Shown here: positions 7,900-43,268 of the stretch, in pieces
How positions within the stretch are numbered: the first letter of the stretch is position 1
Layout: the number at the start of each line of letters is the position of its first letter
Made by a program: the position numbers and the translations under genes
From: Clavaria fumosa
Taxonomy: Eukaryota; Basidiomycota; Agaricomycetes; Agaricales; Clavariaceae
Assembly: GCA_951802425.1 (NCBI GenBank)
Contig: OX637797.1
Coordinates: forward strand, 3,224,001 to 3,288,000
Length of the DNA stretch: 64,000 nt
Direction: 5' to 3'
Notes under the pieces: generated by a model
What the model saw: the letters and a program-made list of their open reading frames with translations, nothing else
Told to the model about the DNA's origin: nothing
Databases searched by the model: none

Positions 7900-9818
7900 A
7901 TCCCGCTCACGGTTTGCTGCAGGACCAAGTAAGCGGAGGGGCAACGATTAGCAAGATTGTAGACGACGACCCGACACTACGCACAGATGTGACTACAGAG
8001 GAGGGACTCAATGATACACCCCCCGTTATTGACCCTCCAGCGCCAGCAGCCCCCAAATCGAAGCCCTCGCAATGGGAGAACCTGCCGCCGCGGGATCACC
8101 CAGAGCGCCAGCGAGCGGCGGCCACGCGATACGGCGTAGAGGCGACCGAAGAGGATGTTGAAGCGGCTCTAGCAGGCCAGGAGGGTCAGCATGCCGCATT
8201 CGTTGCAGTGGGAGGTGAGCCGCGTACTCACCGAGAGGCCATGCAGTCCCCACATGCAAAACAGTGGGAGGCGGCTTTGGCCGCCGAGTTTGCCCAGCTG
8301 AAGAGTTCCGCGACCTTTGAGTGGGTCGAGCGAGTTCCGGAGGGCCGCAAAGCGATAGGAAGTAAAGCCGTATATCGAGAAAAACGCGACGGCGAGGGGA
8401 GGATCGTTAAGTACAAGGTTCAAATCGTCGCGAAGGGCTACTCACAGGTACCAGGCCAGGACTTCGACCTAACGTTCTCATCGGTAGTGAAGTTCACAAC
8501 GTTGCGAGTCCTATTGTCTTTGTGCGCTCGTGAGAACTGGGAGTTGCATCAAGTTGACGTCGTGGGAGCGTACCTGCAGGGCGATCTCGATGAAGAAATT
8601 TACATGACACCACCTGAGGGCATCGTCGTCCCTGGGAAAGCCGGCTGGTCGTGGCGACTGCGCAAAGCGCTCTACGGGCTCAAGCAGGCCGGCCGCCAGT
8701 GGAAACTGAAGCTCGACCGAGCCATGGAAAAGCTAGGTTTTACGAAGGGACAGGCCGACGACTGCCTGTACATATGACGTGCTCCGGGCAAGGGCGTCGT
8801 TTTCGTTCTCGTGTACGTCGACGATATGGTGGTTGCCGCAGAGAAGAGCACGGAGGTAGCATGGTTCAAGACGGAGCTGGGAAAGATCTTTGAGCTAACC
8901 GATTTAGGCGAGTTACGGCTCATTCTCGGGATCCAAGTGAAACGCGATCGCAAGGCACGTGCCATTCAGTTGGACCAGACGGCGTACGTCCGAGAACTTT
9001 TATTGCGTCACGGGATGCAGGGCTGCACCCCCGTGAGTACGCCGCTCGTCTCAAAGGAACGCCTTACTGCTGCCCAGTCCCCCACCTCCCCTGCCGACAA
9101 GGCCCTTTACCTGGAATATGCTAAGGAGATGAAGTATCCAGAGGTACTTGGGGGTGTCCTTTACGCTACTCAGACCAGGCCGGACATCCAGCACGCCGTC
9201 AGCATCTGTGCTCAGTTCAGTGCGAACCCTGGGAAACCACACCTTGAGGCCCTGAAACGCGTTCTCCGTTACCTCGCGGGAACGGCCCATTTAGGGCTTA
9301 GGCTAGGAGGGCGTGACAAACCCCTTGATCTAGTGGGTTGGACTGACTCTGATTGGGCTCAGGACCTGGACACGCGTCGCTCCATCAGCGGCTTTGTCTT
9401 CGAAGTCGCCGGTGGGTTTGTCTCTTGGTCATCGAAGAAACAACCCACCGTCGCGCTCTCAACCGTCGAGGCAGAGTACATGGCTGCCTCCAACGCCACG
9501 AAAGAAGCGATTTGGCTCCACACTCTCCTCGACGACCTCGGTTTCCCCCAGACCCGTGCTACTACCATCCGTGCCGATAACCAGGGATGCATCGCGCTCT
9601 CTCACAACCCCGTCACTCATTCTCGTGCTAAGCACATCGACATACGACACCACTTTATTCGTGAGCGCGTTGCTCAATCCGAGATTTCACTTCTATTTTG
9701 TCCCGCTGAAAACATGATTGCCGACATCCTCACAAAAGCGCTGCCCCACGACACGTTCGAGCGATTCCGCATGGCCTTGGGCGTTGTGGACGAGTCGGGC
9801 CACGCCGAGTGGGAGTGA
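7900..9818 (+). pseudogene. pol: Copia polyprotein, 3' half (reverse transcriptase and RNase H)
   Basis: It resumes exactly after the right target duplication, in the frame left at 1540. An acidic, proline-rich linker is followed by the RT_Ty1 region (about 8220-8960), with the conserved ending KALYGLKQAGRQW and the catalytic VYVDDM at about 8809-8826. RNase H follows, with the WTDSDWAQD and STVEAEYMA motifs and the C-terminal IDIRHHFIRE. A TGA at 8775-8777 interrupts RT after DDCLYI. The context suggests an arginine codon CGA hit by a C-to-T change. The stop at 9816-9818 ends EWE. Apart from the one nonsense codon and the Gypsy insertion the half is well preserved, so the insertion is not ancient. 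Confidence 0.92.
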
Positions 9819-15540: not shown

Positions 15541-15656
15541 ATCATCGACTACCAAGACCTCAATGCAGTAATGAAGAAAGATGCCCATCCGCTCCCTCTC
15601 ATACATGACATCCTCGATGCCCTAAAAGGGAAAATCTTCTTTACCAAGATGGACGT

Positions 15657-16578
15657 TGTAAGGACAATACATGGTTTAAACAAGGAAACTTAACAGATAT
15701 CGACTATCCGGATATTTTGGGATCCAAGGCAATTACATCCGATACGATCCGATAATAATCTGACACTGTCCGATAACACCCAAAAAAAAGCGTCTGATAC
15801 TTATCTGACATCGGACTCTCCGGTCTCCGATCCCCCGTGATGATCACAGCCCGCAGGTCATACACACCGCCCACACCTCCCTATTTCATCACTCCAGCAT
15901 GGTCCACGCTCGACACATGCACTATTCCATTCCCCTTCCTTTATTTCATATACCATGCTGTAAATTTCATATTGTGATCCCTTTCAACCATCCGATCATT
16001 TAAACGTTTCAAACCCTTTGCAGTGCTTCGCCCATTGTTCCTAGTACCCCTTTGCTGTACCAGCCACACTTTCCTTCATTTTACGAGCGGTCCGGACATG
16101 TGCTGATCATCGGACATTTCACTCCTCCGAACCGCATGACTCATTTATGAATTATGGCCCCTATATGACCTTGTACACGATATTGCATTGCCTTCTGTAG
16201 TTTCCAGAGACTTCTGTAGAATCAGATTTGCTGTACTTAGAAAAATGTATTCAAGTACGTACCAGACTCTATGGAAAAGCAGCTTTTTGACTGTCATCCT
16301 CTTGTTGTGACCTTCGACAAGCCCACCCCTTTGTCGTACCTCTCGATCCGCTGGCCTTCGTCATCGCCGGCCTCTCGAACCTTCGATCCGGACATCGGAC
16401 TCTATCAGATCCAATACCAGATACTTCGGACAATGTATATTTTCATTCTCTGAACATTTTACACTCAGCCTCTGCATCATCCAAGGTTCTGTTTAGTGTC
16501 TACGTCGTGTAACAAGACCCCCTGAAGAACCCGGCCGTGAACATCTATTTGCAGCCAACACCTGTACAGCCTACTACA
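15657..16578 (+). repeat. Solo LTR of family B, plus orientation
   Basis: 922 bp, TGTAAGGAC...CTACTACA, aligned end to end with the 918-bp LTRs of Gyp-B but diverged. The flanking duplication is ACGT (15653-15656 and 16579-16582). Removing it restores the RT frame MDVV...GFNNV. Confidence 0.9.
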
Positions 16579-21362: not shown

Positions 21363-21880
21363 TGTCAGTCCAGGTCCCTAACAAAAGCGGAAGGGGGAAA
21401 GTAACTCGATTTCAACGTAAGGAACTACACTCATTACATGGATACTATATATATTAGGGGAAGAGGCTGTGTGAAAGATGAGTCACAAAATGGTGAACGA
21501 GGCTATGCGCACTGAGTCGCGCGGGACAGGGGAGGCACTATAGGGAAAAGGGGATGCCAAATAGGGAAGGTAGCGGCAAGGTACAAGTAAGGGGAGGATG
21601 ACAAGAGAAATGCTTAGCATGGGCTTGGCTGGCCGTGGAGGGGCCTGCACCAGTCCCGATTAGGGTAGATTGCTTGATGCGAGCTGTCAGAGCGATTACT
21701 GCTGATCCACCTCCATCATGAATTGCAAAACATGGGAAGTCGTAAGGAACGTGGGTGTGGGGCACGTGATGGGCGCTTATCGCTGGCCTGTGGGCATGCG
21801 AATCCGTACATGTTCCTGGTCGGAAGTACCTAGTGCGCTATGGGGTTCAGTGAGGGTGGCTTACGTAAGCGATCCTGACA
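21363..21880 (-). repeat. Gyp-D 3' LTR
   Basis: 518 bp. TATA-like ATATATA near 21446. The inferred transcript start region (plus strand 21409-21418, ATTTCAACGT) pairs with the primer site at 33183-33192. One CACGTG near 21762. Confidence 0.92.
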
Positions 21881-33408: not shown

Positions 33409-34326
33409 TGTAAGGACCATATGCGATCTAAACACGGAAACATGACAGATACCGACTATCCGGATGTTTTGCGATCCAAAGAAATTACGTGCGATACGAA
33501 CCGATAACGATCCGACACCGTCCGATAACCACCGATAGTATCCGATACATGTCCGATGTCGGACACTTCGGTCTTCAATCCCCCGTGACGATCACAGCCC
33601 ACCGCTCTCACACACCGCCCACGCCTCTCTATTTCACCTCTCCAGCACGGTCAGCGCTCGACATACACACTATTCCATTCCCATTCCTTTATTTCATATA
33701 CCATGCTGTAAATTTCATATTATGATCCCTTTCAACCATTCAATCGTTTAAACGTTTCAAACCCTTTGCAGTACCTTGTCCATTGTTCTTAGTACCCCTT
33801 TGCTGTACCAGCCCCACTTTCCTTCAGTTTATGAGCGGTCCGGACATTTGCTAGTTATCGGACATTTCATTCCTCCGAGCTACTCATTTCCCTTGTGATA
33901 TAACTCCTTCATGTAACCCTTCACGCGACATGGCGCTGTTCCATGTGTTTTCCGGACATTTCCGTACATTCCAATTTGCTGTACTTACAGAACTGTACTT
34001 AAGTACACTCCGGACCTCTCTGAAATACAGCTTTCTGAACCCCTTCTCTCTGTTAGAAACCTCACCTAAGCTCACCCGTCGTCGCAACCTTCGATCCGCT
34101 GGCCTCCGTCGTTGCCGGCCCTTCGTCTTATCGCACCATCCTTATCGGATTTTATCGGACACATAGCAGAATATCCCGGACACCGTATATTTCTATTTCT
34201 CACATATTTTGAATTCATACTCCACATCCTCAAGGGTGTTTGGTGAATCTCTAACGCCTTACAGGAACCCCTGAAGGACTTGACTGTAATCAAGCAGTTG
34301 CAGCAAGAACCGTAATACCCACTACA
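33409..34326 (+). repeat. Gyp-B 5' LTR
   Basis: 918 bp. Rich in CCGGACA/TCCGATA-type motifs. The partner at 42351 is virtually identical. Confidence 0.96.
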
Positions 34327-34330
34327 ATTC

Positions 34331-34349
34331 TGGAGCCCACCGCGAGGGG
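34331..34349 (+). promoter_or_regulatory. tRNA-type primer binding site of Gyp-B
   Basis: TGGAGCCCACCGCGAGGGG starts four bases after the LTR with the TGG expected opposite a tRNA CCA end. The complement continues into a T-loop-like GTTGAACC. The tRNA species was not identified. This differs from the self-priming families A, C and D. Confidence 0.55.
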
Positions 34350-34715
34350 TTCAACAAGACGTCTTCACTACCACCCTCAAGGATTCCCAGAGGCTCATCC
34401 GCTCCTCAGCCTCGACGCTCCGAACGCCTGAGAAGTCGAAACCCGAATCCGATCACAGAACCACCGCCCTCCGAACCCCCCGGAGAAGTAATTGAAACTT
34501 CCCACCTTCTTCCATCGGACATTCCCAGTATCTCATCCATTGTCTACTCCCACACGAGTTTCACCACTCCGGATCCCTCACTACCACAGACCTTCGAACA
34601 ACCACACTCACCGCTTACACCACTTCCCCTTGAACCAGACATCCTTCATTTCCCGCCCGAAACACCTCAGAATTCACCAGACGAAGTTCACTCACCGCCC
34701 CACGCACCAATACAA

Positions 34716-36713
34716 ATGGCCAACCAACCGAGATATCCGCTCCGTGGCGCCCACGGGGCCCCTGCCTTTGACGGAGTACCGACACACCTCAACCGGTACT
34801 TCGAGGACATCGACATCGTGCTCACCGGCGTCAACCCGGACGTTCCAGAACCCGATTTAATTCGGTACGCCAAGCACTATCTCGACACCGATACGTGTCT
34901 CCTCTGGGAGACTCTTTCACCTGACCCGGACCCGGTATGGACGTGGGATACCTTCAAAGCGGCCGTCCGACGACTTTATCCAGGATCTGATGGAGGTCGC
35001 TTATTTTCCGTCGCCGACCTGGACCGTTTCATATCGGACTCGGCCCAAAAGGGAGTTTACACGCGCGCAGAACACGGAGAATACTATCGGGACTTTCTCC
35101 GGATCACCTCGCACTTGATCACATCACAGCGTATGTCCACAAATGACAGGAACCGACTTTACATCCTCGGATTTGGGGATCATACAAGGCGTCGGATCGA
35201 AAGCCGACTCGCTATCATACTACCAAACCACCATCCGGAGGATCCTTACCCCATGAATGAAGTACATGGTGCAGCTGAATTTCTTCTCTCCTCGACGTCC
35301 CCCCACTCTGCGACAACCGATCAACTTTCCGGACCCGTCCGTCTCGCATCTTCAGCCCCCGGGAGAGAAACGAAACCGGTAGTCAAGAAGGAAGAATTTG
35401 ATATGTCCGCAGCCTGGGCAACATTCGCTTCCACAATGGCTCGCCTGGAATCGATTTTGACAGCCCAATCTCTCGAACCGGCAAGACACTCCGCTCCCCG
35501 GACAACGAACTCTCCCGCAGGCCGGACGTGTAATTTCTGTTCGGAAATAGGTCATTTTGTTAGTGCCTGTCCGAAGGCCCTCGAATACATTAAGTCCGGC
35601 AAATGTATACGGAACACAGAAGGCAGGATTTGTCTCCCCTCCGGACGATATTTGCCAGGCACTATCTCAGGGAACAACCTATCCGAGCGCTTCGACAAGT
35701 ACTACGCTACATACCAATCCCAGAACACGCAACCGGCGACAACCGCGGTATTTGAAGCACAGCCGATCGGACAATCCGCTCACCCCCCGGACATGGAAGA
35801 CGATTCGGACGAGGAAGATGACGAGAATACCGTGTTGGAAAACATGGTCCGCACCTTTGCAAATGATGTCGCGAAGAAAGTAGACAAGGGCAAAAGGAAA
35901 GCACCCACACCCAGGAATACCGATCCTCAGCCATCTAGGTTACCGCCCCCACCCGCCGTTGTTATTACGCCGCCTCAGGTCACTCGTCCATCAAAGCCGG
36001 AGAAAATCGAACGACCCGACGTCCAGTACCATTACCAAGCTCCGATCGAAAATCCGGTAACCGTTCAACAAGTATTCGATCGCGCACTCGACATGCCAGT
36101 CCGCGTCACACCTCGCGAACTACTCGCCATTTCCGGAGACATCCGCAAAAAGATGAAGGATGTGGTTACCGCTCGTCGCGTTCCGGTCACCGCGTCCATC
36201 GTACAGGATACGCTCTATACAAACATTACGGTCCCGGACACCTCCGATCTTGTTGTCGCCGTCGACGCTGCTCCGCTCCGCATCGTAGAAGGGATATTGG
36301 ACAACCGGATCGCCGCGGAGTGCCTGCTCGACCAAGGCAGCTCAATCGTGGCAATGCGAAGAGACGTTTGGGAGAAACTCGGCAACCCACTACACTCCGA
36401 GAACGTTATTCACATGGAATCCTCTCATGGCACCATCGCTCCGACCCTCGGACTCATCAAGAATTTCCCCCTACAGATCGGTCCGTGCACATTCCATGTT
36501 CAAATGCAAGTAGCAGACACGTTGCCCTGCGAGGTTCTTGTCGGACGACCGTTTTTCATGTTAACCGGTTCCCAAACGATTGACCATCCCCACGGGGCCC
36601 AGGACCTTATTCTCAACGATCCAAACACCGGAGAAAGAATCATAGTGCCAACGAAGGAGCGAATCCCGATCCGCAAATCCTTGAAGAACAAGAAACCGCA
36701 TCCGGATTTTTGA
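34716..36713 (+). CDS. gag: Gyp-B Gag-protease
   Basis: 665 residues from ATG (MANQPRYPLRGAHG). N-terminal capsid-like region, a CCHC knuckle CNFCSEIGHFVSAC at residue 272, a long acidic and proline-rich linker (DDSDEEDDENT), then a retropepsin-like domain. Its active-site loop reads LLDQGSSIVAM (Asp539), with Gln where Ser or Thr is usual, followed by the ALVGRPFF-type VLVGRPFF strand. Protease is therefore fused to Gag rather than Pol. The pol frame is open from 36584, giving about 130 nt of overlap in the -1 frame. Confidence 0.88.
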   Translation: MANQPRYPLRGAHGAPAFDGVPTHLNRYFEDIDIVLTGVNPDVPEPDLIRYAKHYLDTDTCLLWETLSPDPDPVWTWDTFKAAVRRLYPGSDGGRLFSVADLDRFISDSAQKGVYTRAEHGEYYRDFLRITSHLITSQRMSTNDRNRLYILGFGDHTRRRIESRLAIILPNHHPEDPYPMNEVHGAAEFLLSSTSPHSATTDQLSGPVRLASSAPGRETKPVVKKEEFDMSAAWATFASTMARLESILTAQSLEPARHSAPRTTNSPAGRTCNFCSEIGHFVSACPKALEYIKSGKCIRNTEGRICLPSGRYLPGTISGNNLSERFDKYYATYQSQNTQPATTAVFEAQPIGQSAHPPDMEDDSDEEDDENTVLENMVRTFANDVAKKVDKGKRKAPTPRNTDPQPSRLPPPPAVVITPPQVTRPSKPEKIERPDVQYHYQAPIENPVTVQQVFDRALDMPVRVTPRELLAISGDIRKKMKDVVTARRVPVTASIVQDTLYTNITVPDTSDLVVAVDAAPLRIVEGILDNRIAAECLLDQGSSIVAMRRDVWEKLGNPLHSENVIHMESSHGTIAPTLGLIKNFPLQIGPCTFHVQMQVADTLPCEVLVGRPFFMLTGSQTIDHPHGAQDLILNDPNTGERIIVPTKERIPIRKSLKNKKPHPDF

Positions 36714-37132
36714 GAGCTGGAGCCTCGAATGTCCGCAAACCAACGGACTTACCTCCGATCAATGCGGACACGGAAGCTATACCCAGATACGAGACTCCAG
36801 CCATTTTTCCTACTTCCGTTCACGTTCCCTTATCGTTTTCCCTTATAAACCCAGTCTCTCTCGACCCCTTCCCCTGTATCAGTATCTCGGACGTTTCTCT
36901 CGATTCCGCTGATTCCCCAGTCGCTATCGGACGTGAACCGTCGCGTCCAAATGTTGCAACCCCCTTGTACAACAAAACCCCCGAAATAAATTCCCTGTCT
37001 ACGGACGCCGTTCTTCCAGTTTACTTGGGAAAGAAATATAAGAAAGTCGCGAATCGCGTCAATCCGATCAAAGCGACAGTACCCAAAGAATTCCGGATTG
37101 TCTGACGCCGACACCCGGACCCCCTAGCCGAT

Positions 37133-40100
37133 ATGCCAACTCTTCCGACCCATCCCCCCGATTTCACCCCCGGTCTTCGATACACTCAAAACCGGAAAGA
37201 CACGCACAACGCCAACCCCACCGGATTCTTATGGCCGGAGGAAGAAAAACTCGTTCACCATCTTATTAAAGCCCAGGAAGACGCCTTCGCTTGGAAAGAG
37301 ACCGAAAAAGGACGATTCGACGCAAAATACTTCGATCCGATTATTATCCCGACAGTCGAACATATCCCTTGGATCTTCAAAAATATACCGATTCCCCCCG
37401 GTATTTACGACGAAGTTCTCAAAGTAATCCGGGAAAAGATCGCAGCCGGCGTTTATGAAGAATCCAACTCTTCTTATCGGTCCCAGTGGTTTTGCGTGTT
37501 AAAGAAAGACGGAAAGTCTCTCCGACTCGTGCACAACCTCCAGCCGCTTAACAAAATCACTATCGGCGATTCCGCGGTCCCCCCGATAATGGAGGTTTTT
37601 GCGGAATCATTCGCCGGACGCGGATGTTACGGATCACTCGACCTTTTCGTCTCCTTCGATCAGCGGTCTCTGGACGAACGAAGCCGAGACCTCACCACGT
37701 TTCAAACCCCTCTCGGAGCAAAACGGCTCACCTGCGTCCCCATGGGATACACCAACGCGACGCAGATTATGCATGGAGACGTCACGCATGTTCTACAAGA
37801 TGAAATTCCGCACGTAACTATCCCATTCGTAGACGATGTAGCGATCAAGGGCCCGGAAACCCGATACGAGCTTCCGGACGGCACCTACGAGACGATCCCT
37901 GAGAATCCGCAAATACGACGATTTGTTTGGGAGCATTTAAATAACGTCAACCGGGTGCTCCAACGAATCAAGAAAGTCGGAGGAACCTTTAACGGCAAGA
38001 AAACGACAATTTGCGTTCCCGAAGCAGTCGTTACCGGACATACGTGCACATACGAAGGACGAGTTCCGGATGCCTCCAACGTTCAGCGTATCCGGGACTG
38101 GCCTCCTTGCAAAACCCTGACCGATGTCCGATCATTTTTAGGGGTTTGCGGACTACTCCGGATATTCATTAAAAACTACGCCGTACTTGCCCGACCTCTT
38201 GTCAGTCTAACTCGCAAGGACGTGCCATTCAGATTCGAAAAAGAAGAACAAAACTCGATGGACCGACTCAAACACGCGATTCTGAACTCATCCGCCATCC
38301 GACCAATCGACTACCGCTCCGGACAACCCGTAATCCTCGCCGTCGACTCATCAAATATCGCCGTTGGTTTCGCACTCTTCCAAATTGGAGAAGATGGAAT
38401 ACGATATCCCTCCCGCTTTGGCTCCATTACCTGGAACGAACGCGAGGCCCGATACTCACAAGCAAAAATCGAATTATACGGACTCTTCCGCGCACTTCGG
38501 TCGTACCGGATTTACCTTATAGGCCTTCCGAAATTTACTGTCGAAATGGACGCGAAGTTCATTAAGGGTATGCTAAACAATCCGGACATTCAACCCAACG
38601 CTGCCATGAATCGATGGATTGCCGGTATACTACTCTTCGATTTCGATCTTGTTCATATTCCCGCAGATAAGCACACCGGAGCCGACGGACTATCACGCCG
38701 ACGTGCCGCAGATGGTGAAGAAGATACCGAGTCTGAAGATCACGAAGAATGGATCGATCGGAGCTACGTATTCGCCATGGAACACATGAATCGAGCACCG
38801 GACGCTTCCTACACATCCGAGACACGACTCGCCGGCATCACCCATACTCGCTTCAAAGTTTACACAGGATCGACGCTACTCAATTCGACGGTACCACCCG
38901 AGGAATCACCGACCCCGAACGAATCTTCCGCCGTCCTTATACCCCGATCCGATGCAGCAAACAAAAGAGAAGAACAGATTCGCAAAATTGAATCTTTCCT
39001 TCGAAACCCGATCCGTCCCTCCGGCATTGACGCAAACCAGTTCCGACGACTGGTCCGCTCCGCATCCGAGTTCTTCATCCTAGATGACAAATTATGGCGT
39101 CGCCGACCTAACGGATACCACCAAGTAGTACCTCCGGACCACAAACGTCTCGCAATTATCACAGAGGCACACGATTCACTCGGCCACAAAGGCGTTTACG
39201 TTATCCGGACACGTATTCTAAATCGGTTCTGGTGGCCGGTGCTGGATCAAGACGTAAAATGGTTTGTCAAAACTTGTCACCAATGCCAAACTCGGCAAAT
39301 CCGGAAGATCTTCATTCCACCGACGGTCGCTACACCGGCCGGTCTTTTCCGTCGAGCGCACATTGATACTATGTTCCTACCAAGAGCCCGTGGTTTCCGA
39401 CTTCTCGTCCACGCCCGATGCTCGTTATCCGCATATCCGGAAGCAAGACCGCTACGAAACGAGACCGCCCGACTTCTCGGAACCTTCATATTCGAAGATA
39501 TACTATGCCGATGGGGAGCAGTAGAAGAGATTATCACGGATAACGGAGCCCCATTTATCAAAGCCCTCGATTTCCTTAAGAAACGGTACGGAATCCATCA
39601 CATCCGTATATCCGGATACAACTCCCGCGCTAACGGCGTCATCGAACATGCCCATCGATCGGTCCGTGAGTCGTTAATCAAAGCAGCAGATGGAGACGAA
39701 TCGAAATGGCCGGACGTTTTACCCTCAGTCATTTGGGCAGAACGAACCACGATCCAACGGTCCACCGGCCACTCCCCATTTTACATCGCACATGGCGTCG
39801 AACCGCTTTTCCCCTTCGACATATCCGAAGCAACATATTTAATTCCGACCGCCGACGCCCCGATGACCACTCCGGAACTGATAGCCCTTCGTGCCCGCCA
39901 ACTGCAAAAACGAGAAGAAGATCTAGCAACAATCGCCGATAAAGTGCTCGCTGCCCGCAAACAATCCGTCAAGCAGTTCATCGACGCACACCGGAAGTCT
40001 ATTATCGACTACGACTTCCAACCCGGATCGTTGGTATTGATCCGCAATTCGGCCGTTGAAATGGAATTAAATCGAAAAACAAAACCGCGATTCTTCGGAC

Positions 40101-40447
40101 CGATGATCGTCGTTCGCCGAACACAATATGGCGCCTATATTCTCTCGGAACTCGACGGCGCCGTTTCCAAAATCCACTACGCAGCTTTCCGCATCATTCC
40201 CTACTATCCGAGGTCGCAAACATCGATTCCGGTCACTTCTATCATCGACCAAACGACGGAGATAAACGAGGACATCTCTCCCTATCAAATACACGAGGCG
40301 TCACCCAACTCTATCGACAGAGAAGATGAGCAAAACCAAGCGGCTGACCTATCCGATGAATCCGATAATGAAACCACCGACGACGACACTGCAGAAACTC
40401 GTCCGCAACGCTCCGGAGCAACCCGGAACCTTCGGCCTCGCCATTAA
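37133..40447 (+). CDS. pol: Gyp-B Pol (RT, RNase H, integrase)
   Basis: 1104 residues from ATG. RT has the box FVDDV (first Asp residue 234). RNase H LAVDSSNIAVGFALF has its Asp at 405. The integrase has an HHCC finger (HDSLGHKG...CHQCQ) and Asp745, Asp803 and Glu838, the D-X57-D-X34-E spacing of retroviral-type integrases. The C-terminus is acidic and ends LRPRH with no chromodomain. Upstream, the same frame is open from 36584 but broken by one TGA at 37103-37105, possibly CGA mutated. If so the native Pol would be a frameshift fusion to Gag and this copy is slightly damaged. Otherwise the ATG at 37133 is the start. Confidence 0.9.
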   Translation: MPTLPTHPPDFTPGLRYTQNRKDTHNANPTGFLWPEEEKLVHHLIKAQEDAFAWKETEKGRFDAKYFDPIIIPTVEHIPWIFKNIPIPPGIYDEVLKVIREKIAAGVYEESNSSYRSQWFCVLKKDGKSLRLVHNLQPLNKITIGDSAVPPIMEVFAESFAGRGCYGSLDLFVSFDQRSLDERSRDLTTFQTPLGAKRLTCVPMGYTNATQIMHGDVTHVLQDEIPHVTIPFVDDVAIKGPETRYELPDGTYETIPENPQIRRFVWEHLNNVNRVLQRIKKVGGTFNGKKTTICVPEAVVTGHTCTYEGRVPDASNVQRIRDWPPCKTLTDVRSFLGVCGLLRIFIKNYAVLARPLVSLTRKDVPFRFEKEEQNSMDRLKHAILNSSAIRPIDYRSGQPVILAVDSSNIAVGFALFQIGEDGIRYPSRFGSITWNEREARYSQAKIELYGLFRALRSYRIYLIGLPKFTVEMDAKFIKGMLNNPDIQPNAAMNRWIAGILLFDFDLVHIPADKHTGADGLSRRRAADGEEDTESEDHEEWIDRSYVFAMEHMNRAPDASYTSETRLAGITHTRFKVYTGSTLLNSTVPPEESPTPNESSAVLIPRSDAANKREEQIRKIESFLRNPIRPSGIDANQFRRLVRSASEFFILDDKLWRRRPNGYHQVVPPDHKRLAIITEAHDSLGHKGVYVIRTRILNRFWWPVLDQDVKWFVKTCHQCQTRQIRKIFIPPTVATPAGLFRRAHIDTMFLPRARGFRLLVHARCSLSAYPEARPLRNETARLLGTFIFEDILCRWGAVEEIITDNGAPFIKALDFLKKRYGIHHIRISGYNSRANGVIEHAHRSVRESLIKAADGDESKWPDVLPSVIWAERTTIQRSTGHSPFYIAHGVEPLFPFDISEATYLIPTADAPMTTPELIALRARQLQKREEDLATIADKVLAARKQSVKQFIDAHRKSIIDYDFQPGSLVLIRNSAVEMELNRKTKPRFFGPMIVVRRTQYGAYILSELDGAVSKIHYAAFRIIPYYPRSQTSIPVTSIIDQTTEINEDISPYQIHEASPNSIDREDEQNQAADLSDESDNETTDDDTAETRPQRSGATRNLRPRH

Positions 40448-40504
40448 GTATTTTTTCTCCATCATATCCTTCATTTTTCTATACTTCACATTGATTCAAA
40501 CCTT

Positions 40505-40505
<1 letters not shown>

Positions 40506-40535
<30 letters not shown>
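40506..40535 (+). repeat. A30 homopolymer
   Basis: Thirty adenines about 60 bp after the pol stop, between pol and the end of the antisense gene. They could derive from a retrotransposed poly(A) tail or be a simple slippage tract. Confidence 0.9.
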
Positions 40536-40537
<2 letters not shown>

Positions 40538-40677
40538 GAAATTTCGGACAAGTCCAAACTTTATACCCGACGTTCTTTCAACCATTTTCTCACATTCTCA
40601 CATTCCTCACTTATCCCACACGACATACCATACCAAATAGAAAAAGAAAAACATATATAAAAACAAAAACAAAATAT

Positions 40678-42193
40678 TTACTTAGAGGACGACTCGCCAA
40701 GGAGGAGCATCCGGAGCAGCTCCGCTCCGGCCTTCACCTGGTCCGCCCCCCTCTCCATCATCTCCAGCGCCCTATCGAGCGCCTCCCTCCCGGACACCCC
40801 TCGCGCCACCTCCCGCTCCTTACCCTTCCGACTTGGTCCCGCCTCCGCCTTCTTCTTCTTTGCCGGCGGCTCCTCCACCAGCTCCACACTGGTATCCTCC
40901 TCAATCTCGTCCTCCTCCTCCGGCGTCGTCTCCTCGCGAACCGGTACCCGCGTCGCACCTCGCCTCGGCCTCTTACTTCCGCTCGCTCCCGCCGCCTTCG
41001 GACCTGTTCCGATACGTTAGCAAATGCGGACCCGATACCTTCTCGACATACCTTCCGTTCCGGACACCGCCGCTCTCTCTGTTTTCGCTCCTGAAACACA
41101 CCTATCATTTGTCTCATCATGAAAAATAAAAAGAATACCACTTACCTCGCACAGCCGACAGACTGCACGATACCTTATACGTCCGGCACCACCGGCACGC
41201 TATCCCCTCCACTCCGTAGCACGCCCGCCACTTCCGGGTGCACTCCTTGCACCCCGGAACGTGCTCCTAATCATTATATCAGACGTCGAAAAAGCCTCAC
41301 ATATCTTAATTAACCACTCACCTTATCTCCAGGCTGCCGCGCAGCCCGGGACTCTATGTCGCTCTTCGCCCTCGCTCCGCTGCCTTCCGCCTCGCGATCT
41401 CCACCCACACCGGAGTCGCCATCATCCGCGCACCGTCCCGGTGCACGAACATCGGCTCCTCCACCGACTGCTCGCCTCCCCCGGCCACCGCACTCACCGC
41501 CGCCGCCTCGATAACACCGACGGGCGTCACCCCGTCGGTTCCCCACACGGTCCGATGACCGTCCGGATCCTCCCCTGCCGCCACCTCGTCCACACGCAGC
41601 TCTCCGGCGTCCGGTGATATCGTCGTCGTTGTTACCGCCGCTGCACCGGACTCCGCCGCTCCCGTCGTCGTCGTTGTTGCCGCCGCCGCCGCCTCGCCCT
41701 CGTCGTCGCTGTCACTTACGACAATTAAGCGCGCCCGGGCAAGGCGCGCCCTCTTCTCGGCAGCCCGCCTCTCCTCCGCCTCCGCCTCTGCTGCGGCCCG
41801 CTCAGTAGCCGCCCTCTCCTCGCTCGTGCGCTGTTTCTCGGCCTCGACCTCCTCCCGCCTTCTCGTCCGCTCAGCGGACCACTCGTCCCCGCGGAGCTTC
41901 TGCCACTTCTTGAGCCTTCGCGCGACCCGGACGAGTCCCTCGTCCACCTCCACGTCGTCGTCGATCGCTGCCACATATCCGGCAAGAAAATCGTCCTAAA
42001 AACGTTGTCAGTGCGATACAAAAAGTACGAAAGATTCTCGTTCACGCACCGCGTCACCCGCATACGTCCCCACCCACTCCGCGCACTCTCCATCCTGCCC
42101 CCGATCCGGCAACTCCTCGCCCGGCGCCATGGCCTGCGCCTCGGTCATCGCCTGGACTGCGTTTCGAAAGATTGAAGAATCGAAGTTTTCCAT
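40678..42193 (-). CDS. Antisense spliced gene inside Gyp-B, Zn2Cys6-like protein
   Basis: Model on the minus strand: exons 42193-42050, 41995-41498, 41390-41322, 41266-41146, 41090-41052 and 41003-40678, about 398 residues. Introns of 54, 55, 55 and 48 nt have good donors (GTGCGT, GTGAGT, GTAAGT, GTATGT) and AG acceptors, and phases agree throughout. The 107-nt intron 41497-41391 is less sure; it is needed to avoid a TAG. The product starts MENFDSSIFRNAVQ, then has a charged Ala/Glu/Arg coiled coil, an acidic SDSDDEGE patch, a six-cysteine cluster C-X2-C-X6-C-X7-C-X2-C-X6-C, a basic/acidic segment (GSKRPRRG, EEEDEIEED) and a KKKK nuclear-localisation-like stretch. Probably a nuclear DNA-binding factor carried by the element. 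Function is inference. Confidence 0.75.
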
Positions 42194-42350
42194 TGTCGGA
42201 GAGTTGACGTGTTGCTGTCGCTGGAGAAAACACAAGGGTGTGTTTGGACCTATGTGCACCCACACGACGCGTACTTCACGATCAACAAACCGTTATTTGG
42301 CCTTGTTTGGTTGCAACCGAGGGCGGTTGCATTTTCAGCCCCCGGGAGAA

Positions 42351-43268
42351 TGTAAGGACCATATGCGATCTAAACACGGAAACATGACAGATACCGACTA
42401 TCCGGATGTTTTGCGATCCAAAGAAATTACGTGCGATACGAACCGATAACGATCCGACACCGTCCGATAACCACCGATAGTATCCGATACATGTCCAATG
42501 TCGGACACTTCGGTCTTCAATCCCCCGTGACGATCACAGCCCACCGCTCTCACACACCGCCCACGCCTCTCTATTTCACCTCTCCAGCACGGTCAGCGCT
42601 CGACATACACACTATTCCATTCCCATTCCTTTATTTCATATACCATGCTGTAAATTTCATATTATGATCCCTTTCAACCATTCAATCGTTTAAACGTTTC
42701 AAACCCTTTGCAGTACCTTGTCCATTGTTCTTAGTACCCCTTTGCTGTACCAGCCCCACTTTCCTTCAGTTTATGAGCGGTCCGGACATTTGCTAGTTAT
42801 CGGACATTTCATTCCTCCGAGCTACTCATTTCCCTTGTGATATAACTCCTTCATGTAACCCTTCACGCGACATGGCGCTGTTCCATGTGTTTTCCGGACA
42901 TTTCCGTACATTCCAATTTGCTGTACTTACAGAACTGTACTTAAGTACACTCCGGACCTCTCTGAAATACAGCTTTCTGAACCCCTTCTCTCTGTTAGAA
43001 ACCTCACCTAAGCTCACCCGTCGTCGCAACCTTCGATCCGCTGGCCTCCGTCGTTGCCGGCCCTTCGTCTTATCGCACCATCCTTATCGGATTTTATCGG
43101 ACACATAGCAGAATATCCCGGACACCGTATATTTCTATTTCTCACATATTTTGAATTCATACTCCACATCCTCAAGGGTGTTTGGTGAATCTCTAACGCC
43201 TTACAGGAACCCCTGAAGGACTTGACTGTAATCAAGCAGTTGCAGCAAGAACCGTAATACCCACTACA
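42351..43268 (+). repeat. Gyp-B 3' LTR
   Basis: 918 bp, preceded by the short purine run GGGAGAA at 42344-42350. Confidence 0.96.

Follow-up and report, generated by a model that had tools for sequence, protein, structure and literature searches.

A predicted spliced antisense gene for a cysteine-cluster protein accompanies pol in a Ty3/Gypsy lineage of the fungus Clavaria fumosa

In plant Gypsy elements, antisense open reading frames are described between pol and the 3' LTR, as in maize Grande (gene23), rice RIRE2 and Silene Retand, and the antisense ORFs of Retand contain a TRP28 domain (PF04195) (PMC7264820, PMC11963269). Among retroviruses, HTLV-1 carries HBZ, an antisense gene that is expressed from the 3' LTR as a spliced transcript and encodes a nuclear regulator controlling the 5' LTR, with APH-2, APH-3 and APH-4 as relatives among the antisense retroviral proteins (PMC10186651). 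In the open-access literature searched, no fungal LTR element was named as carrying a spliced antisense gene. Antisense genes of mobile elements are already known from plants and HTLV-1; the locus analysed here has a multi-intron, Cys-cluster version that occurs across a fungal Gypsy lineage and was not named in that literature.

The window under study is a stretch of 64,000 nucleotides, corresponding to C4:3224001-3288000 of the genome that we searched (48.8 Mb, 17 contigs). A preliminary description, made from the letters of this DNA, had recognized in it a 9.86-kb Ty3/Gypsy element, Gyp-B, with near-identical LTRs, and this element was confirmed. It spans 33409-43268 and is bounded by two plus-strand LTRs of 918 bp each, the 5' LTR at 33409..34326 with TG...CA ends and the 3' LTR at 42351..43268, which match each other at 99.9% with a single mismatch. 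Both were delimited by self-match, by their ends and by an empty target copy at window 21363-21825, from which a target-site duplication of 4-5 bp, (A)GCGG, can be read. The two LTRs, the target-site duplication and the RT-RNase H-integrase order assign the carrier to Ty3/Gypsy. The gag ORF (34716..36713, plus strand) encodes a zinc knuckle and an aspartyl-protease-like region, both as sub-threshold Pfam matches, and the pol ORF (37133..40447, plus strand) encodes RT, RNase H and an integrase zinc-binding domain, arranged as in Ty3/Gypsy elements; the Pfam scores of RNase H and of the integrase domain exceeded their cut-offs, and that of RVT_1 fell just short (28.2 vs 29.6). The pol frame of the window copy has an in-frame stop at 37103, and most near-identical copies possess an open pol of 1287 aa. 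The window element is recent judging by its LTRs, yet two of its genes are damaged.

Between pol and the 3' LTR, the minus strand holds the multi-exon frame that had been described, running from a start codon at 42193 to a stop codon at 40678, with the pol stop at 40447. Its four introns of 48-55 nt, joined in phase, were also found as reported (54, 55, 55 and 48 nt in the window). Exon 1 (42050..42193, 144 nt) is separated by intron 1 (41996..42049, GTGCGT...TTTTAG, 54 nt here and 54-60 nt in other copies) from exon 2 (41322..41995), intron 2 (41267..41321, 55 nt) precedes exon 3 (41146..41266, 121 nt), intron 3 (41091..41145, 55 nt) precedes exon 4 (41052..41090, 39 nt), and intron 4 (41004..41051, 48 nt) precedes exon 5 (40678..41003, 326 nt), which ends with the stop codon. 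The near-identical family has the same five exons and four introns, with intron lengths of 54-60, 55, 55 and 48 nt, and in one copy the G+C content is 62-70% in exons and 31-50% in introns. Two further elements of the preliminary description, an uncertain fifth intron of 107 nt and a protein of about 398 codons, had to be abandoned. The supposed intron is an artefact that bridges a 19-nt deletion near 41366 in exon 2 of the window copy; these 19 nt are present in 39/39 other fetched copies, and exon 2 of intact copies is open right up to the second intron. Exon 2 measures 674 nt in the window; most of the intact copies have 693 or 708 nt. Because of the private deletion, the window copy's own spliced frame breaks off after 261 codons. 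In the 32 intact copies for which the length was determined, the protein has 440 or 445 aa, except for lengths of 419, 433 and 475 aa, and exon 2 differs by an in-frame 15 nt between the 440- and 445-aa forms.

The near-identical set comprises 40 copies, the window included, and at least three further near-identical copies exist in the genome outside it. Free accumulation of stops and frame changes, which would speak against a gene, is not what these copies display: 35 of the 40 have an open frame with its start codon and every splice site preserved, the others being the window copy, L039, L041, L045 and L047. The sense strand had been said to lack a comparable frame, and this holds in that each sense frame contains 4-10 stops in the four copies inspected; uninterrupted stretches on this strand nonetheless reach up to 317 codons. 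Upstream of the start codon, a minus-strand leader of 157 bp (42194..42350) reaches to the 3' LTR and is a candidate antisense promoter or 5' UTR. A block within it (GTCCAAACACA..CTTGT) is recognisable in most divergent relatives, in an alignment that reached to -75 only. At the other end of the intergenic region, a plus-strand poly(A) tract lies directly after pol (window about 40505-40560) and differs in length in nearly every copy. It is adjoined by a short palindromic block, GGACTTGTCC on the minus strand, which is preserved without mismatch in 13 of 18 rows, distant relatives included. We considered that the tract might derive from the tail of the antisense gene itself and rejected this, the poly(A) being on the other strand.

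Splice sites are kept far beyond the near-identical family. At the four intron places of 16 divergent relatives, GT..AG was found in 60 of 64 pairs, against an exon background in the same comparison of 689/1235 for GT and 1255/2129 for AG. The exceptions (intron 1 in L048 and L062, introns 1 and 4 in L059) all fall in damaged stretches, and the relatives with kept splice sites and exon frames have 47-68% protein identity. Exons change length in frame in most rows, introns take any length from 47 to 62 nt when damaged rows are set aside, and mismatch was higher in introns than in exons in 13/13 relatives compared, a set drawn from the 16 divergent ones. Measurement of dN/dS, which the preliminary description had named as a check, pointed to purifying selection, with values of 0.21-0.30 for ten divergent relatives against the intact copy L020 (12 of 18 rows entered the set, six frame-broken or truncated rows being left out). 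Third codon positions changed about twice as often as first or second ones (63, 60 and 127 changes for L020-L056). When six pairs of four rows were pooled by exon, dN/dS amounted to 0.18 for exon 1, 0.31 for exon 2, 0.25 for exon 3 and 0.21 for exons 4-5. The pol tail gave similar figures, 0.16-0.51 in 20 of 21 pairs, with one pair not computable. Internal stops or frame breaks are present in 12/16 divergent relatives, and because the divergent copies are mostly dead now, the dN/dS figures understate the constraint on their active ancestors. Among the young copies, we counted 15 synonymous and 31 non-synonymous variants and 0 stops vs 14.4, 30.1 and 1.5 expected (38 of 40 copies; L045 and L047 were left out for large deletions). 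This fits neutrality, and no selection was detectable among these 38 near-identical copies, as young insertions should show. The splice sites, the exon frames, the purifying selection and the missing sense-strand rival support a spliced, protein-coding antisense gene, and we hold it as close to certain that the antisense frame represents a real protein gene under selection.

The first account had understated how widely the gene is distributed, as the comparisons indicate that it is common to the whole Gypsy lineage instead of belonging to one element. When the genome was searched with the exon 3-5 protein, 202 matches were obtained, and our counts use the 136 among the matches listed that reach past the end of exon 2. 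Among these 136, 96 are less than 95% identical, and 95 of the 96 lie tail-to-tail beside a pol relative, 53 being paired when the final 455 residues of pol served as query and 42 of the other 43 when its final 150 residues did. For the one divergent match left, C9:3082885, neither pol search found an adjoining pol tail. Conversely, the 455-residue query gave 94 pol matches; for 91 of them a gene match lies tail-to-tail at a distance of no more than 3 kb, and the three other loci (L047, L064, L065) hold gene remnants on inspection. The gap between pol and the gene is about 200-340 bp in most cases, with outliers up to 3.1 kb, the partner pols have diverged to 56-66% in the last 150 residues, and the pol tail lies on the opposite strand in 16/16 fetched divergent relatives. 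Homologues at the same place in other LTR elements, for which a search had been proposed, are present within this genome. In addition, 11 related metagenome proteins (P0001-P0011) were obtained from three protein searches, among the best 7,991-7,994 candidates scored in each, and five of the six exon-2 relatives continue into the same donor, GDK|V.

Beside two more distant pols (44-45% tail identity), no recognisable relative of the antisense gene was seen. Directly after these pols, an unrelated small antisense ORF of 85 codons, TRVWIFGHLGSLYGTVVKTVRM..., occupies L066 535-789 and L067 735-989 (minus strand in both), and its end may contain an intron. This ORF has 26 genome matches, with open frames and whole-query identities as low as 57%. 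Antisense genes between pol and the 3' LTR may have more than one origin.

Retrotransposons that copy through RNA lose introns on their sense strand. The proposal that antisense placement preserves the introns of this gene fits the data: every intron is still present in the readable divergent relatives, and a genome-wide search for processed, intron-less copies, made with one pattern spanning the joined ends of exons 2 and 3 (the only junction searched), had 0 matches at up to three mismatches. What is reverse-transcribed is the genomic RNA, which is the sense strand; in that orientation the introns are reversed and stay unspliced, which explains their persistence. Placement on the opposite strand is in this way a route for a retroelement to hold a spliced, host-style gene over long times.

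The encoded protein carries in exon 3 the motif C-x2-C-x6-C-x7-C-x2-C-x6-C, a spacing that lies exactly within the limits of the Zn2Cys6 pattern. The motif had earlier been called DNA-binding in type, and this was borne out in one respect, as the six cysteines are present and invariant in 8/8 rows of alignment A1 (8 of 12 rows; alignment A2 comprises 5 of 12 rows plus P0001-P0004), but not in another, as the profile score falls short. Zn_clus (PF00172) is the Pfam family that most members match, six of eight doing so, all below the threshold, with a best E of 0.16 and a score for the first member of 8.2 bits vs a cut-off of 21. The middle homology domain of Zn2Cys6 factors was not found in the antisense protein, a PDB search with the Cys motif returned no relevant relative, and a single-sequence structure model of exon 3 reached a pLDDT of 62.6, which is unusable for the fold. 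The Cys motif is predicted to bind zinc and DNA. Exon 2 encodes a charged, presumably coiled-coil-like stretch and an acidic hydrophobic motif, LIVVSDSDDE, that we take to resemble a SUMO-interacting motif. Exon 5 encodes an acidic stretch, basic stretches (PPAKKKKAE/SRKGKERE) that we take to be NLS-like and a C-terminal end that is presumably helical. Because of the basic stretches the protein is predicted to enter the nucleus, and it is probably, with appreciable room for doubt, a nuclear regulator.

A second feature that may be connected with this function is found in U3 of the LTRs, where CCGA[T/C] (= [A/G]TCGG) sites form chains on the plus strand, with five sites at 10-11 bp spacing in the 3' LTR (42443..42488) and six sites in the 5' LTR (33501..33557), the single LTR-LTR difference falling in the sixth site of the latter. 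The site offsets in the LTR are 92, 103, 113, 123 and 133. Within the 64-kb window, chains of at least three sites at 10-11 bp are confined to the LTR pair of Gyp-B, and no site pair at this spacing is present in five other repeat families there (LTR status confirmed for three). A related LTR at window 15654-16372, about 79% identical, bears a partial chain with one pair at 10-11 bp. Upstream stretches of 11 divergent relatives were fetched, and in 10 of them the beginning of the LTR could be located. With the window LTR this makes 11 LTRs, of which 10 have one or more pairs at 10-11 bp (shuffle P 0.001-0.016) and the L075 LTR has none; the L077 upstream region contains no recognisable LTR start and no CCGA[T/C] site. 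The core positions of the array differ less between LTRs (0.34) than the same comb slid by 1-5 bases (0.37-0.51), also in the most divergent LTR (0.30 vs 0.36-0.57), and many lost array sites are CpG changes. Since the LTRs share descent, we treat the array as a single instance of conservation. Genome-wide, the triple pattern was matched 781 times vs 16 for a backward control, but a visible part of the matches lies in a different repeat (CCGACCAACTCCGAC...). CCGAC/CCGAT units placed exactly 10 bp apart also occur in a second repeat (CCGACCAACTCCGACGGACTCCGAT), noted, for example, at C1:244467, C1:412566 and C1:713542. In old divergent copies, the stops in pol are mostly TGA and the lost U3 sites mostly read TG or CA for CG, which suggests a CpG-directed decay of silenced copies.

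Several accounts of the antisense frame compete with that of a regulatory gene. Exons of 62-70% G+C lengthen chance open frames, and permissive splice-site guessing, of which the discarded fifth intron was an instance, could join such frames; the kept splice pairs (60/64), dN/dS of 0.2-0.3 and the exon/intron contrast led us to reject this account, which we regard as practically without weight. That the antisense RNA is itself the functional unit, for instance as a small-RNA silencing trigger or decoy with the open frame being secondary, is an idea discussed for plant antisense retrotransposon transcripts (PMC7264820), but it is very unlikely here, given a constraint at the codon level with third positions changed about twice as often and dN/dS of 0.2-0.3, frame-keeping indels and precise splice sites. 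Slightly less probable still is that a single, recently amplified family captured a host gene once, by transduction, and that the gene is no component of the lineage. Four spliceosomal introns do look like those of a host gene, and C9:3082885 is a gene match with no adjoining pol tail; the pairing of gene and pol across divergent pols decided us against this account, as the gene also accompanies pols whose last 150 residues have diverged to 56-66% and 42 of 43 initially unpaired matches gained a partner in the second pol search. An ancient capture of a host gene at the base of the lineage is possible.

The strongest competitor accepts the gene and assigns its product to another step, such as nuclear import, integration-site choice or protection from silencing, with the Cys motif serving protein or RNA contacts and the array belonging to a host factor. 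LTRs normally carry host-factor sites, the Zn_clus match is sub-threshold only, and exon 2, with its charged, presumably coiled-coil-like stretch and SUMO-interacting-like motif, would suit such a role. An exact and invariant Zn2Cys6 spacing and an array core formed by CGG triplets, the usual half-site of Zn2Cys6 proteins, argue in the opposite direction, and we judge this account rather unlikely, though a good deal less so than those of the preceding paragraph. What the sequence itself establishes is the gene structure, the conservation of splice sites, frames and cysteines, the purifying selection and the fixed place beside pol. The explanation that we prefer, and consider reasonably probable, is an accessory nuclear regulator gene of a Ty3/Gypsy lineage, HBZ-like and encoded in antisense. 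The gene would be transcribed from the 3' LTR side, its transcript would be spliced through the four short introns, and translation would yield a nuclear protein of ~445 aa of the Zn-cluster type. This protein would regulate the element at its LTR, where the helically phased CCGA[T/C] sites in U3 are possible points of action, and could tune both the sense promoter in the 5' LTR and its own antisense promoter in the 3' LTR. Binding to the array is suggested by the CGG core; an action of the protein on U3 is a tentative proposal, which we would sooner doubt than assert, and the array could alternatively serve a host factor, a point that we count against the preferred explanation. On the same side we place the sub-threshold Zn_clus scores, the lack of a PDB match and of a usable exon 3 model, the neutral variation of the young copies, the decay of most divergent relatives and the deviating L075 and L077. 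A shade more speculative is a closed control circuit, in which a Zn-cluster protein would bind phased CGG-type half-sites in its own U3 and set sense vs antisense transcription, with the antisense placement keeping the spliceosomal introns.

In fungi, this gene provides a counterpart to HBZ and to the antisense genes of plant elements. About 35 intact near-identical copies, a defined protein and a candidate array make the role of antisense retrotransposon genes directly testable. For annotation there is a warning: such genes, which accompany almost all pols of the lineage, may be mistaken for host genes of zinc-cluster proteins.

Compared to the fungal Zn2Cys6 (PF00172) factors, the protein shares the Cys spacing, weak matches in 6/8 members and a CGG-core LTR array, whereas it stays below the curated cut-off, gave no sign of a middle homology domain and is encoded in antisense within a retrotransposon. 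It resembles the plant antisense ORFs in place, orientation, lineage-wide presence and a predicted DNA-binding or nuclear product, and differs from them in its fungal host and its four introns, introns in the plant ORFs not being mentioned in the main texts of PMC7264820 and PMC11963269. TRP28 (PF04195) was not among the Pfam matches of the window exon 2 part, the exon 3-5 rows and P0001-P0004, so that by this domain the gene does not classify as a plant-type antisense additional ORF (aORF-3R). HBZ and the APH proteins, as described in PMC10186651, belong to primate retroviruses and have a bZIP or no known domain, whereas the fungal gene has a Cys cluster and four introns inside its coding region. 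The resemblance to HBZ is an analogy, with no sequence relation implied, between antisense genes with spliced transcripts, expression from the 3' LTR and control of the 5' LTR, which in the fungal element are proposed features.
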